NCBI RefSeq assembly: GCF_900128985.1
Contig: NZ_FQUC01000004.1
Span: forward strand, 62,001-126,000
Source of the DNA: Indolivaga macrotermitis
GTDB taxonomy: Bacteria; Bacteroidota; Bacteroidia; Bacteroidales; Dysgonomonadaceae
Reading direction: 5' to 3'
DNA length: 64,000 bases
Shown here: positions 16,974 through 37,133 of the stretch, piece by piece
Numbering within the stretch: the stretch's first letter is position 1
Layout: the number at the start of each line of letters is the position of its first letter
The notes under the pieces: generated by a model
Database searches by the model: none
What the model saw: only the letters and a program-made list of their open reading frames with translations
What the model was told of the DNA's origin: nothing
Made by a program: the position numbers and the translations under genes

Positions 16974-16998
16974 GTAGGGGTAAGATTCTGCTTTACTC
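16974..16998 (+). repeat. REP-like palindrome, degenerate (leader 1)
   Basis: GTAGGGGTAAGATTCTGCTTTACT-type sequence, a diverged form of the 25-base GTAGGGG...CTCTGCT...CCC element found in leaders 2 and 3 and inside the transposase gene at 34269. Confidence 0.65.
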
Positions 16999-20049: not shown

Positions 20050-20230
20050 ACAAAATTTTCTATTGTGTCAAAATATCGGGGCATTTTTTTATGCTTTCGT
20101 TTGCTTCGTCATATATATCCATTTCCAAATAAGTTGGCCGGGCAGGCTGTGTCCGCTAGGAGCATTGTTGTTTTGTTGTCGTTCGAATACTACTCTGAAG
20201 AACAGTTTACAAATGAGTCGGCTACTTTAT

Positions 20231-20261
20231 GCAGCGGGGTGCAGTGCTTGCACTTTGCTGC
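20231..20261 (+). promoter_or_regulatory. Conserved 13-bp stem-loop, leader copy 2
   Basis: GCAGCGGGGTGCA / TGCACTTTGCTGC with loop GTGCT. Position 7 of the stem is G-U here where copy 1 has A-U. Confidence 0.75.
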
Positions 20262-20338
20262 TTTATTTTGCTATTGTTGAGGACTTTAACATAAAGACAC
20301 AAAAAAACAAAGGTTTTAAAGATAATATTCAAAGAGAT

Positions 20339-20363
20339 GTAGGGGTAAGGTTCAACTTTGCCC
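20339..20363 (+). repeat. REP-like palindrome, left element of an inverted pair (leader 2)
   Basis: GTAGGGGTAAGGTTCAACTT then TGCCC; diverged in the centre. Faces the element at 20425. Confidence 0.65.
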
Positions 20364-20424
20364 ATTGTATAGAAAAACAAGATGGAGCCTTCTTTATGCC
20401 CTTTGTGATAAAGTACACATTATC

Positions 20425-20449
20425 GGGCAGAGCAGAGCCCTGCCCCTAC
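20425..20449 (-). repeat. REP-like palindrome, right element (leader 2)
   Basis: On the plus strand GGGCAGAGCAGAGCCCTGCC then CCTAC, identical to the element at 24385 and reverse-complementary to the copy at 34431 in the transposase gene. It is read in the leader frame as SGRAEPCPY. Confidence 0.85.
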
Positions 20450-20530
20450 AGCAAACATTTTCTAAAACAATCACTCTTTATAAAAACAACAAAAAGATCT
20501 ATGACTTCAATAACTCAAACAGAAACGACA

Positions 20531-24050: not shown

Positions 24051-24235
24051 CTAAACAAAAAGTTTTATTGTGTCAAAATAACGGGGCATTTTTTTATGTC
24101 TCCGTTCACTTTGTTGTATATATCCATTTCCAAATAAGTTGGCTGGGCAAGCTGTGTCCGCTAGGATCATTGTTGTTTTGTTGTCGTTCGAATACTATTT
24201 CGGATTATAGCTTGCATAGGGGTCAACTACATTTT

Positions 24236-24266
24236 GCAGCAGGGTGCAGTGTATGCATCTTGCTGC
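24236..24266 (+). promoter_or_regulatory. Conserved 13-bp stem-loop, leader copy 3
   Basis: GCAGCAGGGTGCA / TGCATCTTGCTGC, loop GTGTA. Both arms differ from copy 1, yet all 13 pairs remain. Confidence 0.75.
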
Positions 24267-24343
24267 TTTATTTTCGAGATTTATCGAATAGTATTTTAAA
24301 TACAAAGCCGCTAAGATACAAAGGTTTTACACAAAGACATACT

Positions 24344-24368
24344 GTAGGGGTAAGGCTCTGCTTTACCC
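24344..24368 (+). repeat. REP-like palindrome, left element (leader 3)
   Basis: GTAGGGGTAAGGCTCTGCTT then TACCC. Forms an inverted pair with the next element, 16 bases away, like a classical bacterial interspersed mosaic element. Confidence 0.85.
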
Positions 24369-24384
24369 TAAAAAATACATTGCC

Positions 24385-24409
24385 GGGCAGAGCAGAGCCC
24401 TGCCCCTAC
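24385..24409 (-). repeat. REP-like palindrome, right element (leader 3)
   Basis: Same 25 bases as at 20425; reverse complement of 34431-34455 in the transposase gene. Confidence 0.88.
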
Positions 24410-24451
24410 AACGAATACATTCAAAAACAATCACTCTTAATAAAAACAACA

Positions 24452-32172: not shown

Positions 32173-33297
32173 ATGGATATGAACACTATGCCTGAAATGG
32201 CTCCGCTAAACCCGACTCCTAATCAGGCTCCGGCTCTGCAACGTATGGATAGAGACGGTAATGTTGATTTGGCCAATTTAAGCCAGAACGAAATAGATAA
32301 GTTGTCGCAACTCAACCGCAGTTTAGTTGTTACAGACGTTAATTCGGTATTGAACTATGGAGCCGACCTACAGGCTACTATGGAAAAATACAGTAACGAT
32401 TTCCTTACATCTGTCCGGACTTTCAACTCGGGCGAAGTGGGTGCGCATATAAACGAACTGCTTACCGAACTCAATTATATTGATGTAGATGAACTGAACC
32501 AAAGTCCGTTCAAAGCATTCCTCAGTAAAATTCCGTTGGTAAAGAATCTGGTGGTAAATGTCAAAAAGATATTTCAGAAATACGATACGGTTATTTCCAA
32601 TGTCGACAAAATATCAAATAAGATAAAAGCCGGACGTATCAACTCACTGAAAGACAATACTGCCCTGCAAACGATGTTCGACAATAATGTGGAATATATC
32701 AAACAGATCGAGCAACTGATTATTGCCGGTCAGTTAAAGATGCAGGATTTGCAAGTGAAACTAGCTGAGATGGAGGGTAATCCTGCTAACTACAAAGATT
32801 ACGAAATAAGCGATATGCGCGAATTTATATCACGCCTCGATAAACGTCTGGCTGATATGAAGATCATCCGTTATGTAATGATGCAGTCGCTTGCGCAAAT
32901 ACGTGTTGTGCAAAACAACAATGTTGCTATTGCAGACAAAGCTCAATCGATTATCTCCACTACTATTCCGGTATGGAAAAACCAGTTAACTATTGCTGTT
33001 GCATTGTGCCGTCAGAAAGCAAATGTAGAAATGCAGCGTAAAGTGGCTGATACAACCAATACTATATTGGAGAAGAACGCCGAACTGCTTCGTCAAAACA
33101 GTATAGAGGTAGCCCGCGAAAACGAAAACACCGTAGTTTCGGTAGAAACATTGAAGAAGACAACCCAATCATTGATAAGTACTTTGGACGAAGTAAAACG
33201 TATACATGAAGAAGGTATGCGCAATCGTCAGGTACTGGATAAAGAGTTACAATCCCTTGAAACTGAATTAAGGAAGAACGTGACTGGAATTCGCTGA
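32173..33297 (+). CDS. telA: TelA-like toxic anion resistance protein
   Basis: TelA/KlaA family proteins accompany TerD in tellurite and chemical-stress systems; biochemical role is not established. Protein of 374 aa, all-helical, with long coiled-coil stretches. Family features include FLSKIPLVKNLVVNVKKIFQ, the central YKDYEISDMREFISRLDKRL and the conserved LAQIRVVQNNNVAIADKAQS with IPVWKNQLTIAVAL. ATG 32179 is an alternative start. The downstream helical gene begins 9 bases later. Confidence 0.92.
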   Translation: MDMNTMPEMAPLNPTPNQAPALQRMDRDGNVDLANLSQNEIDKLSQLNRSLVVTDVNSVLNYGADLQATMEKYSNDFLTSVRTFNSGEVGAHINELLTELNYIDVDELNQSPFKAFLSKIPLVKNLVVNVKKIFQKYDTVISNVDKISNKIKAGRINSLKDNTALQTMFDNNVEYIKQIEQLIIAGQLKMQDLQVKLAEMEGNPANYKDYEISDMREFISRLDKRLADMKIIRYVMMQSLAQIRVVQNNNVAIADKAQSIISTTIPVWKNQLTIAVALCRQKANVEMQRKVADTTNTILEKNAELLRQNSIEVARENENTVVSVETLKKTTQSLISTLDEVKRIHEEGMRNRQVLDKELQSLETELRKNVTGIR

Positions 33298-33306
33298 TAA
33301 CCGGTA

Positions 33307-34272
33307 ATGGACGAAAACAGAGCCAATATACTCGAAACATCGGATCGTATAATTCAACAACTCGGGGAACTGGTCGTCTTTTTCGAAGACCAGACCATTA
33401 TGAACATCTATCTGCAAAATAAAGTTATCCACAAACTTTTTGAGGACAACGAGGATATGGATGTTAATAAGCTGGAATTATACCACATACAATTTACGAT
33501 GACGTTAATAGAACTTCTCGATAAAATAAAGAAGAAGAATGAGCGCTTTGTAGGTATGATGAAATCGGAAATCGAGTTGAATAACGATATGATGCAGAAG
33601 TTGCGCAAAGCTATTGCCCTTGAAGGAAGCTTCGAAGGTGAAAAAGTGCAACAGGCGCTTCGTGTGTCGCGCTCGATATATAATTTCCATAAAATACTTT
33701 CATCCCAATCAAGGGATTACCCTTTTATGGAGAATACCTCTGCTTTCGGGTTAAAGTTTTATAAAGAATATTTTTTCGAAGTAGACCCTCAATTGCTCGA
33801 TGTACTGATCAGTTATTCGAGCTCGGATGTTTACCGTAATTCATATGGAGCTATTGGCCGGACATTACTAACCAATCTGGCTGCTAATAGTTATGCGATA
33901 GATTTTTTCGCAGGTATTCGTATAGGTAATCTTATGGCCGAAATATACAGAATACGTAATCATGGAATGTTTTTTCTGTTTGTTCCGTCAAAAAACCTAT
34001 TTCTGGAGGTAGAAATGTCGTTATTTCCGGAAAAAGACGAATGGATAACCCTTTTATCGAAAAAGGAATCGTCAATAAAAGAGCTTACCCTTAAGAATAT
34101 CGAACTGGAGAAGAATATCAAAACCAATATCCGGAAGCTGGACGAGGATATCGCTGAACTATTGAAAGAAAACCTGAAAAAGATTACCGACATAGATTTT
34201 CTTGCCGATCTGGAGAATGTAGATATTCAGGCGAATACCCTGAAAGCCATGCTCGAAACCAAAATGATATGA
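33307..34272 (+). CDS. Helical protein of the Ter island, unknown function
   Basis: Not recognised. Protein of 321 aa, predicted mostly helical and charged, with no signal peptide. A central region contains FGLKFYKEYFFEVDPQLLDV and NLMAEIYRIRNHGMFFLFVP; the C-terminal 90 residues (SSIKELTLKNIELEKNIKTN and onward) look like coiled coil. It follows TelA by 9 bases, so a TelA partner is plausible. Its stop overlaps the ATG of the transposase gene by four bases (ATGA), which may mark where the element landed. Confidence 0.7.
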   Translation: MDENRANILETSDRIIQQLGELVVFFEDQTIMNIYLQNKVIHKLFEDNEDMDVNKLELYHIQFTMTLIELLDKIKKKNERFVGMMKSEIELNNDMMQKLRKAIALEGSFEGEKVQQALRVSRSIYNFHKILSSQSRDYPFMENTSAFGLKFYKEYFFEVDPQLLDVLISYSSSDVYRNSYGAIGRTLLTNLAANSYAIDFFAGIRIGNLMAEIYRIRNHGMFFLFVPSKNLFLEVEMSLFPEKDEWITLLSKKESSIKELTLKNIELEKNIKTNIRKLDEDIAELLKENLKKITDIDFLADLENVDIQANTLKAMLETKMI

Positions 34273-34820
34273 CTTATACTTCTGCAACATATAGCAAACG
34301 GAAAAACATCCGCCTTCAGGGATATGACTATTCTAGTGAAGGATTGTATTTCGTTACCATATGTACACAGAATATGAAGTGTATTTTCGGTGAGGTTACA
34401 GATGGGAAGATAGAATACAGAGATAGTGATGTAGGGGCAGGGCTCTGCTCTGCCCTCAATTCTAAAATTGTACATCTATCTGATATTGGCGTAATTGTTC
34501 AAAACCAATGGCTATCCTTGCCCCAAAGATTTCCGACAATAGAATTATTTAATTTTATTGTAATGCCGAATCACTTTCATGGGATTATACATATCAGGAC
34601 AGAGCAGAACCCTGCCCCTACATTAAGTGATATCATTTGTGCATTTAAGTCAATAACAACTAAAATACGCAATAAATCATTCCACACTACCGGACAAAAA
34701 ATCTGGCAGCGGAATTATTATGAGCATATTATCAGGAATGACAGATCGCTAATACAAATAGCCGATTATATATCATCAAATCCTGTCAATTGGCAATCTG
34801 ATAGGTATTATAAAAATTAA
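34269..34820 (+). CDS. REP-associated tyrosine transposase (RAYT)
   Basis: Y1/HUH-type transposase of the REP-associated group, which cleaves single-stranded REP hairpins. Protein of 183 aa. It shows the N-terminal YDYSSEGLYFVTICTQN, the HUH motif His102-Phe-His104 in MPNHFHGI, the catalytic Tyr in RNYYEHIIRN (150/151) and a C-terminal YISSNPVNW. Two REP-like palindromes lie within the coding sequence, in opposite orientation, read as VGAGLCSAL and RTEQNPAPT. It interrupts the Ter island. RAYT genes are usually single copy and not flanked by IS ends, and no flanking inverted repeats were seen here. Confidence 0.88.
   Translation: MTYTSATYSKRKNIRLQGYDYSSEGLYFVTICTQNMKCIFGEVTDGKIEYRDSDVGAGLCSALNSKIVHLSDIGVIVQNQWLSLPQRFPTIELFNFIVMPNHFHGIIHIRTEQNPAPTLSDIICAFKSITTKIRNKSFHTTGQKIWQRNYYEHIIRNDRSLIQIADYISSNPVNWQSDRYYKN
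34431..34455 (+). repeat. REP-like palindrome inside the RAYT gene, element 1
   Basis: GTAGGGGCAGGGCTCTGCTC then TGCCC; exact reverse complement of the elements at 20425 and 24385 in the module leaders. Confidence 0.9.
34597..34621 (-). repeat. REP-like palindrome inside the RAYT gene, element 2
   Basis: Plus strand reads GGACAGAGCAGAACCCTGCC then CCTAC, two bases different from the leader elements. Inverted relative to element 1. Confidence 0.85.
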
Positions 34821-34832
34821 GACCAACAACCC

Positions 34833-35777
34833 ATGATAAATCGGATTTACTTCTTTTCAATAGTATTGATACTATTCCTGCTTTCGGGAGTAGTGCATGC
34901 ACAGATGAAAGAGGCACACCGCAAGTTGGTGTTGAAAAGCGATGTTATTCTCGTATACAATTCATATTTAGAGAGAGAGAAAGATATTGTATCAGATTAT
35001 ACAACAGTATATTTCGACTCTATCTATGACAGAAATATAGACACCATACTGGTAAATAAAACCAAATTCAAGAAAGGAGATTACAGGCTTCAACGTTTAG
35101 TAGAAGGAGAAGATGTATTTATTAATTCGATACAGGAAGGTGGAGGATGTTTACTTTTAGGGATGCTGGATAGTGACTCGGTGTACGTCAACTTTCTTTT
35201 TCTTAAGAAGACCGGGAAAGAGTACCGGAACTTAGCTGAATTAAATGGAATTGAAATATCCAGAGCCAAAGGGTATTACATTCCTCAGATAATAAGGCTT
35301 ATAGAGATCAATTCGATAAAAGATCCGAAAGAGAAATACAAGCAATCGGTAAACTGGTTTATTGATAATGGAGTTTACCCTGACAACGATTTTATTGAGT
35401 ACTATATACAACAAGGTATTGTTCAGAAAGATAATTACTTTGATGACGAGATAATACTGAGGGCTAAGAATATGTTTCTAAAGGGAAAGGAAAGTTTATT
35501 GCCTATCATACAAGATAAATATGCATCGGAAGCAAAAAATTATTACCTTCAAAAAATGAAAAGAATAGCACGTTTAACAGAACCACGCTATTCTGACTAT
35601 TACGATTTCCGGAACAGTATCAGGTTAATGTATGATTTCGAATATGAAAATGCAGAATATATTCTACTCGGTATGCTTACTTCCGATCCGGTAGACTCTT
35701 ACGATAAATCGCGAATAATGCGACACTTTATTGAAATGGTCGAAAACGATAAAAATATAACAATCAGAAAAGAATAA
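34833..35777 (+). CDS. Secreted protein of the Ter island, unknown function
   Basis: Not recognised. Protein of 314 aa with a clear signal peptide (IVLILFLLSGVVHAQ) and no lipobox. The mature part is mixed alpha/beta then helical, with a segment WFIDNGVYPDNDFIEYYIQQ suggesting helical repeats. It lies between the transposase and the VWA genes with short gaps. It is the only exported protein of the island, and a periplasmic sensor role would be speculation. Confidence 0.65.
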   Translation: MINRIYFFSIVLILFLLSGVVHAQMKEAHRKLVLKSDVILVYNSYLEREKDIVSDYTTVYFDSIYDRNIDTILVNKTKFKKGDYRLQRLVEGEDVFINSIQEGGGCLLLGMLDSDSVYVNFLFLKKTGKEYRNLAELNGIEISRAKGYYIPQIIRLIEINSIKDPKEKYKQSVNWFIDNGVYPDNDFIEYYIQQGIVQKDNYFDDEIILRAKNMFLKGKESLLPIIQDKYASEAKNYYLQKMKRIARLTEPRYSDYYDFRNSIRLMYDFEYENAEYILLGMLTSDPVDSYDKSRIMRHFIEMVENDKNITIRKE

Positions 35778-35818
35778 ATTTAGAACTACTTTAAGAACAA
35801 CATAAAATTTAAACAGAT

Positions 35819-36457
35819 ATGAGAAAACTTCCTGTATACCTTGTATTAGATACCTCAGGATCGATGCACGGAGAACCTATCGAAGCCGTAAAGAACGGTG
35901 TACAAGTATTGGTTTCGACACTGCGTCAAGACCCTTATGCTCTGGAAACTGCCCACCTCAGTATTATCACATTCGATGAAAGAGCAAAACAAGTATCGCC
36001 TTTGACCGAACTGTCGATGTTCCAGTTGCCAAGCCTTACAGCCAATGGTACAACTTGCTTAGGTGCAGCCTTGAGTCTGTTGGCAGAACGTATCGAAGCG
36101 GAAGTACACAAAAGTACCGCCGAAAAGAAAGGCGACTGGCGTCCACTAGTATTTATAATGACAGATGGTGCACCAACTGATAACTGGGAAAGAGGTCTGG
36201 AAGATTTTCGCAAAACCAAGTGCGCTATGGTAGTAGCTTGTGCTGCCGGACAAAGTGCTCAAACCAAAGTCCTGAAAAAAATTACAGATACTGTAGTCTC
36301 TTTAGATACTGCCGATAGCATGACCATCAAGGCATTCTTTAAATGGGTATCGGCATCAGTTAGCTTTGGTAGCCAGAAAGTAGAATCGACTCATCAGGAA
36401 ATAGCCGGAATGAGCGAGCTGCCTCCTCCTCCACCCGAAGTAAATATTGTATTATAA
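35819..36457 (+). CDS. TerY-like VWA protein 1
   Basis: Von Willebrand A domain protein (212 aa) of the TerY group, cytoplasmic metal-dependent binding protein of Ter systems. The MIDAS is intact: DTSGSMHGEP, the Thr in NGTTCLGAAL and the Asp in MTDGAPTDNW. The tail is proline rich (ELPPPPPEV). First of three tandem VWA genes that precede a PP2C phosphatase and a kinase, the TerY-P triad described for Ter stress systems (Anantharaman, Iyer and Aravind). Confidence 0.93.
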   Translation: MRKLPVYLVLDTSGSMHGEPIEAVKNGVQVLVSTLRQDPYALETAHLSIITFDERAKQVSPLTELSMFQLPSLTANGTTCLGAALSLLAERIEAEVHKSTAEKKGDWRPLVFIMTDGAPTDNWERGLEDFRKTKCAMVVACAAGQSAQTKVLKKITDTVVSLDTADSMTIKAFFKWVSASVSFGSQKVESTHQEIAGMSELPPPPPEVNIVL

Positions 36458-36497
36458 ACCGGGATTGTTAATATGTAATTAAAATAAAATTCAAAAT

Positions 36498-37133
36498 ATG
36501 AGACGATTACCTGTATATTTATTATTAGACACATCGGGCTCGATGCGAGGCGAACCTATCGAATCGGTGAAGGTCGGATTAGAATCGATGGTCGCCAGTC
36601 TCAGACAAGATCCATTCGCCCTCGAATCGGTATATATCAGTATTATTACATTCGACCGCGATGTGAAACAGCTATTACCGCTGACAGCATTAGAGCATTT
36701 ACAACTGCCTGAGATCGTAACACCCGAATCGGGTCCTACACATCTGGGAGCAGCATTGGAAATGCTTTGCCAGAAAGTAGACTCGGAAGTAAAGCTTAGT
36801 TCGGCTGACGAAAAAGGAGACTGGATGCCCTTGCTGTTTATTATGACAGACGGGAAGCCTTCCGACCTTCAAAAGTATAACCAGATGATACCTCAAGTCA
36901 GGAACCGTAATTTTGCCGGAATCATTGCCTGTGCCGCCGGTGTAAAAGCCGACACACAACCTCTGCTTGCACTGACTAATCAGGTGTACTCACTGGACAC
37001 AACCGACAGTTCTACTTTCCGTCAGTTCTTCAAATGGGTATCGGCATCTGTCAGTGTGGGTAACCGCAGTGTAGGCGCCAGTAACGATATAGCATTACCA
37101 CCTCCTCCACCGGAGATCCATACAGTTATATAA
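36498..37133 (+). CDS. TerY-like VWA protein 2
   Basis: Protein of 211 aa, paralogue of the gene before. MIDAS residues in LLDTSGSMRGEP, the Thr in GPTHLGAALEML and Asp in MTDGKPSD. Ends with the same type of proline tail (ALPPPPPEIHTVI), which may bind a common partner. The shared FFKWVSASVS block near the end is conserved in all three copies. Confidence 0.93.
   Translation: MRRLPVYLLLDTSGSMRGEPIESVKVGLESMVASLRQDPFALESVYISIITFDRDVKQLLPLTALEHLQLPEIVTPESGPTHLGAALEMLCQKVDSEVKLSSADEKGDWMPLLFIMTDGKPSDLQKYNQMIPQVRNRNFAGIIACAAGVKADTQPLLALTNQVYSLDTTDSSTFRQFFKWVSASVSVGNRSVGASNDIALPPPPPEIHTVI

Follow-up and report, generated by a model that had tools for sequence, protein, structure and literature searches.

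In-frame REPs on both sides of the HUH codons of a RAYT gene in Indolivaga macrotermitis

Why does a RAYT gene of Indolivaga macrotermitis carry, inside its own coding sequence, two copies of the repeat on which its enzyme is thought to act? The gene lies at 34269-34820 (+) of the window, which is the whole 64,000-nucleotide stretch of contig NZ_FQUC01000004.1 that was analysed, and it encodes a protein of 183 amino acids. An earlier note, made from the letters alone, had called it a RAYT (TnpAREP) gene, and this identity is borne out by domain, profile, and structure matches. Pfam Y1_Tnp was found in the product with 33.1 bits against a cut-off of 23 (E 7e-8). The top family match is NCBIfam REP_Tyr_transpos, yet its 69.1 bits lie below the curated cut-off of 80. 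With a profile built from 55 homologues, the E. coli TnpAREP-REP structure (4er8) ranked first (E 2e-9), and the predicted structure (mean pLDDT 84) was matched to 4er8 by Foldseek with an E of 8.7e-7. In the structure search, the model resembled the ISDra2, IS608, and 4er8 transposases, with TM-scores of about 0.48 by query length. The protein has the motifs NHFH, WQ, and YISSNP. The HUH motif NHFH (residues 101-104) is encoded by 34569-34580 (+); in an alignment of the 55 homologues, M99, P100, and H102 are invariant and N101 and H104 nearly so. Y167 of the YISSNP motif, encoded by 34767-34769 (+), and N171 show no variation in the same alignment, and Y167 is likely to be the catalytic tyrosine, a role carried over from the family. 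The product has both the HUH motif and the single-tyrosine Y1 transposase domain expected of a RAYT.

The two 25-nt palindromes described in the earlier note were found exactly where it had placed them, in opposite orientation. REP A, GTAGGGGCAGGGCTCTGCTCTGCCC, lies at 34431-34455 (+), upstream of the HUH codons, and encodes VGAGLCSAL (residues 55-63); the inverted REP B, GTAGGGGCAGGGTTCTGCTCTGTCC, lies at 34597-34621 (-) and encodes RTEQNPAPT (residues 110-118). The reading frame is kept through both, so that they are translated on either side of the NHFH codons, as had been claimed. As a GTAG-headed hairpin, REP A is perfect (z -3.2; equalled in stability by 1 of 200 shuffles). The hairpin of REP B is weaker (z -1.7), and its two departures from the family consensus are both nonsynonymous. 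The inverted arms of the pair extend to 28 nt. Four matches to the REP pattern occur in the window at up to 3 mismatches, and none was obtained in any of 100 dinucleotide shuffles. At the shared amino acids, third codon positions are conserved in 10/12, 12/14, and 9/11 cases within the REPs versus 45/87, 50/88, and 41/86 elsewhere, the samples within the REPs being small.

Are these palindromes real REPs? They are members of the genome's own REP family, and REP A is identical to several dispersed copies, which makes good the word "REP-like" of the earlier note. A strict pattern gave 14 genomic matches and a looser one 39, versus none with the reversed controls. Chance palindromes were ruled out by the shuffled windows, by these reversed-pattern controls, and by the codon shuffles described below. 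The family has two stem subtypes, CAG/CTG and TAA/TTA, related by compensated changes. In the window, an intergenic REP of the TAA-stem subtype at 20339-20363 (+) pairs with a copy of the same sequence as REP A at 20425-20449 (-), and another of that subtype at 24344-24368 (+) pairs with a second copy of the REP A sequence at 24385-24409 (-), both REP A-like copies being pattern matches. A further copy was found with the looser pattern at 16974-16998 (+) (G000:C22:78974, G000 being this genome). Rfam gave no match in the window. Among 61 related genomes, the family is present in six, and the other 55 have no copies. Where the orthologous RAYT is present, there are 17 (G000), 7 (G001), and 51 (G019) copies; the congeners without a RAYT at the operon position have 3 (G002), 3 (G004), and 1 (G005). 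A dispersed GTAG REP family is associated with this RAYT. The REPs kept by the latter three genomes are mostly degenerate, as if the family decays once the enzyme is lost. G002 has a more distant RAYT at another locus.

The copy number in this genome should be read with care. Among 21 own-genome loci compared, a subset of the 39 looser-pattern matches, 16 have in common a longer repeat, which reaches about 0.8 kb, and most of the copies here would therefore reflect segmental duplication and not REP movement. A population of 120-bp REPINs, suggested by 7 of 15 pairs being exactly 120 bp, was scaled down for the same reason, 16 of the 21 loci lying in or beside the longer repeat. The copies of the repeated segment (L001, L002, L007-L009, L045-L048, L050, L052-L054, L056, L057, and L059) are mostly about 65-87% alike pairwise and carry or adjoin a REP pair. 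Those in the window (about 20060-20500 and 24070-24450) lie just 5′ of secreted-protein genes, and at least one secreted-protein gene downstream of the segment has a VGINT motif. For several of eight G019 loci compared, the common stretch surrounding the REP is just about 36-57 bp, and two of seven G001 loci compared have about 114 bp in common; these stretches are consistent with true REP or REPIN dispersal in the two genomes.

Did the REPs enter the protein as insertions, or are the two peptides ordinary loops whose DNA resembles a REP through chance or codon bias? Alignment with REP-free homologues gave a divided answer to the claim that both peptides are insertions. At the VGAGLCSAL site (site A), the stretch joining two strands is longer by a net 20 or so residues, and residues 50-59 of the model, where REP A starts, form a low-confidence loop (pLDDT below 50). 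At the RTEQNPAPT site (site B), the claim does not hold; the REP-coded residues occupy a variable linker with no net gain over, e.g., the G084 homologue, and in the model they form the loop joining strand 102-109 to helix 119-137. That the site B loop is not longer than in some REP-free homologues is what ordinary protein sequence would give. However, REP A exactly matches dispersed copies, hairpins far exceed the codon-shuffled expectation among homologous genes (199 versus 3-13), the REPs are family-specific, both among genomes and in gene flanks, and the variation is consistent with hairpin pairing. The earlier note had named peptides conserved over unrelated DNA as the observation that would tell for ordinary loops; none was found among the REP-bearing homologues looked at, where the peptides vary in step with the hairpins. 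It is scarcely credible that these are ordinary loops. The gene has in-frame REPs in the manner of the published subclass 2.4.

How common is this among related RAYT genes? From 150 loci, 138 distinct HUH-bearing homologous genes were retained after non-homologous frames, frames lacking the HUH motif, and frames of identical proteins were discarded. In 105 of the 138, a total of 199 GTAG- or GTGG-headed hairpins were found, and 20 codon-shuffled sets gave 3-13 matches. The commonest arrangement is both orientations at site B only (50/138). The split pair, with a + copy before the HUH codons and a - copy after them, was found in 16 of the 138, across several lineages, and the reverse polarity once. 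For the present gene (L015), site B was entered by hand after the detector had rejected its imperfect hairpin; the score threshold at site A was waived for L015, L017, and L122, and L033 was excluded for its weak A hairpin. GTA GGG is the main reading of the + copies (23/26 at site A and 52/69 at site B), and the reading frame that gives a TAG stop is nearly empty among the in-gene + copies. Symmetric "double foot" REPs of the GTAGAGACGC...GCGTCTCTAC type are found inside the homologues L024, L025, L032, L039, L184, and L199, some of them in tandem.

The two copies of a split gene resemble each other. Their mean identity is 0.92 within a gene versus 0.69 between genes (n=16; none of 2000 permutations as high), and the best match of a copy is its own partner in 15 of the 16 genes. 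For pairs within site B, identity is 0.81 within versus 0.61 between genes, and the own partner is best in 12 of 24. Between A and B of the split genes, 128 stem pairs include 10 two-sided, 4 one-sided, and 1 broken change, a tally skewed by the detector's preference for hairpins; the corresponding tally within site B covers 18 of the 24 pairs, five not having been entered and one of the remaining 19 skipped for unequal length. Stem changes in the in-gene REPs of homologues often change the encoded residues. Of 98 homologous genes, 34 have a further copy of their own REP in the flanks, versus 27 of 2425 trials with a foreign REP, and the present gene is among the 64 of 98 without its own REP in the flanks. 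A quick tree with the REP residues masked covers 136 of the 138 genes, the other two having been dropped as short; 57 of its 133 inner branches are open. On this tree, the split group requires four changes versus REP-free genes and seven versus all others, at least three being forced by starred branches. The split arrangement is probably recurrent, as judged from this tree, and an ancient state followed by losses is also possible.

Does the gene move with its REPs? The earlier note had suggested that the element spreads together with its gene by way of the embedded pair. The geometry is indeed REPIN-like, with the heads pointing outward, so that REP A and REP B might serve as element ends letting the gene or its core spread. 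However, the genome contains a single full copy of the 552-bp gene, and the 12 other matches are all REP-sized pieces. It comes after one shared upstream gene and ahead of vWA genes in G000, G001, and G019, the last of a different genus, and its ATG overlaps the upstream TGA as ATGA in G000 and G001. The corresponding junction in G002, G004, and G005 has no RAYT; the stop of the upstream gene is TAA there, and a vWA gene comes directly next. The gene is single-copy and not self-mobile, is found at one operon junction across two genera, and gives the suggested spread no support; that the gene and its REPs move as one unit is disfavoured by these facts and is very improbable. The upstream gene nearest to that of G000 is the one of G004 (86% identity), where the RAYT is missing, and this suggests vertical inheritance of the RAYT with losses. 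The operon (32173-37133) consists of genes for TelA (PF05816), an unknown 321-aa protein, the RAYT, an unknown 314-aa protein, and vWA proteins; the 314-aa gene (34833-35777) is missing between the RAYT and vWA in G001. Pfam gave no family for the neighbours of the RAYT at 33307 and 34833, and the viral contigs searched held no relative. The inverted flanking REPs of a RAYT (TnpAREP) gene are lacking here; a search of the 5 kb to each side, with up to 5 mismatches allowed, gave none. In G019 (L016), on the reverse strand, a REP-like TAAGGGGCAGGGCTCTGCTCTGCTC and a second GTAGGGGCG head lie in the gap that separates the upstream stop from the ATG of the RAYT, the REP-like sequence 5′ of the ATG being nearly a classical flanking REP.

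What, then, are the in-gene REPs for? It is reasonably probable that this RAYT is of the subclass 2.4 kind, by the published description, with two cognate REPs placed in peripheral loops mainly as tolerated passengers. REP A lies in a loop ahead of the HUH strand and REP B in the linker behind it. They may have arrived by REP insertion into loops that tolerate extra residues, avoiding stop codons, and gene conversion or renewed replacement by REPs may then have kept the in-gene copies matched to the family. As tolerated passengers, they would guarantee that the enzyme's gene holds a copy of its target, and any regulatory use would be secondary. Several observations stand against this reading: the RAYT lacks a flanking REP, unlike a classical REPtron; REP B has two nonsynonymous changes and a weaker hairpin; and the copy number in the genome is mostly due to segmental duplication. 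The recurrent polarity, + before the HUH codons and - after them, is not accounted for by passive tolerance either.

The earlier note had also suggested autoregulation or self-targeting. Under autoregulation, the in-gene pair would be a putative target that lets the RAYT hold down its own expression; the enzyme might bind the single-stranded DNA or the mRNA of its gene, or the two arms might act through a long mRNA stem around the HUH codons. The RNA of 34420-34630 is predicted to fold with the arms paired at -75 kcal/mol (z -6.8; none of 200 shuffles as stable), although such pairing is what any inverted repeat would give. The polarity in 16 of 138 homologues versus the reverse in one speaks for autoregulation, as does the start codon overlapping the stop of the upstream gene, and both this polarity and the stability of the mRNA stem are possibly signs of it. 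However, the commonest arrangement has both orientations within site B (50/138), and compensated changes inside each hairpin separate A from B in several split genes, which indicates that each REP is preserved rather than an A-B duplex. An mRNA duplex between A and B as the main selected feature is weakened by these changes. Autoregulation is a doubtful explanation on this balance. It is still less likely that the split pair arose several times in unrelated RAYTs with unrelated REPs and was retained, matched to the REP family of each genome, because the gene needs it as an internal gauge of REP recognition. If true, such a gauge would shut the gene down or test the enzyme against its own target.

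The finding bears on how REPs spread and on why RAYT genes persist for long without jumping. A target within the coding sequence ties the enzyme and the repeat together on one molecule, and thus each gene records the REP paired with its enzyme. This allows RAYTs to be matched directly to REP families by computation, even in draft genomes, and in-gene targets give a simple test of whether an enzyme acts on its own gene.

Embedding of REPs in a RAYT gene, which the earlier note had contrasted with the usual action of RAYTs on REPs outside their genes, has already been reported for subclass 2.4 (Quentin et al. 2018, PMC6006769). According to its main text, tnpAREP genes of this subclass hold in-frame REPs, inserted generally between the HuH and Y motifs and away from the active site; the motifs are NH[IFV]H, WQ, and YIxNNP, and helix alphaB ends with an 8-residue insertion. 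The phenomenon is known, and what is new here is another instance, confirmed and measured, with numbers added. Neither the split arrangement flanking the HUH codons nor the within-gene similarity was found in the passages of the literature covered, and a word search of the text of PMC8266576 gave no mention of internal REPs. REPs within other protein genes have been described (Di Nocera et al. 2013, PMC3733652). Like the intragenic GTAG/CGTC REPs and the Rickettsia palindromic elements treated in that paper, the present ones are palindromic repeats translated in frame; unlike those intragenic REPs as described there, their host gene encodes the very enzyme that is presumed to act on them. With E. 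coli TnpAREP and the classical REPtron (4er8), the present RAYT shares the HUH/Y1 nuclease fold and a GTAG-headed REP, whereas the REPs of the classical gene lie on its flanks and here they sit within the gene. With subclass 2.4, as set out in the main text of PMC6006769, it shares in-frame REPs within the gene, the NH[IFV]H and WQ motifs, and long GTAG-headed REPs whose stem base has three G-C pairs. It differs from that description in having no flanking REP within 5 kb, in YISSNP for YIxNNP, a difference of one position, and in the placement of one REP before the HUH codons and one after them.
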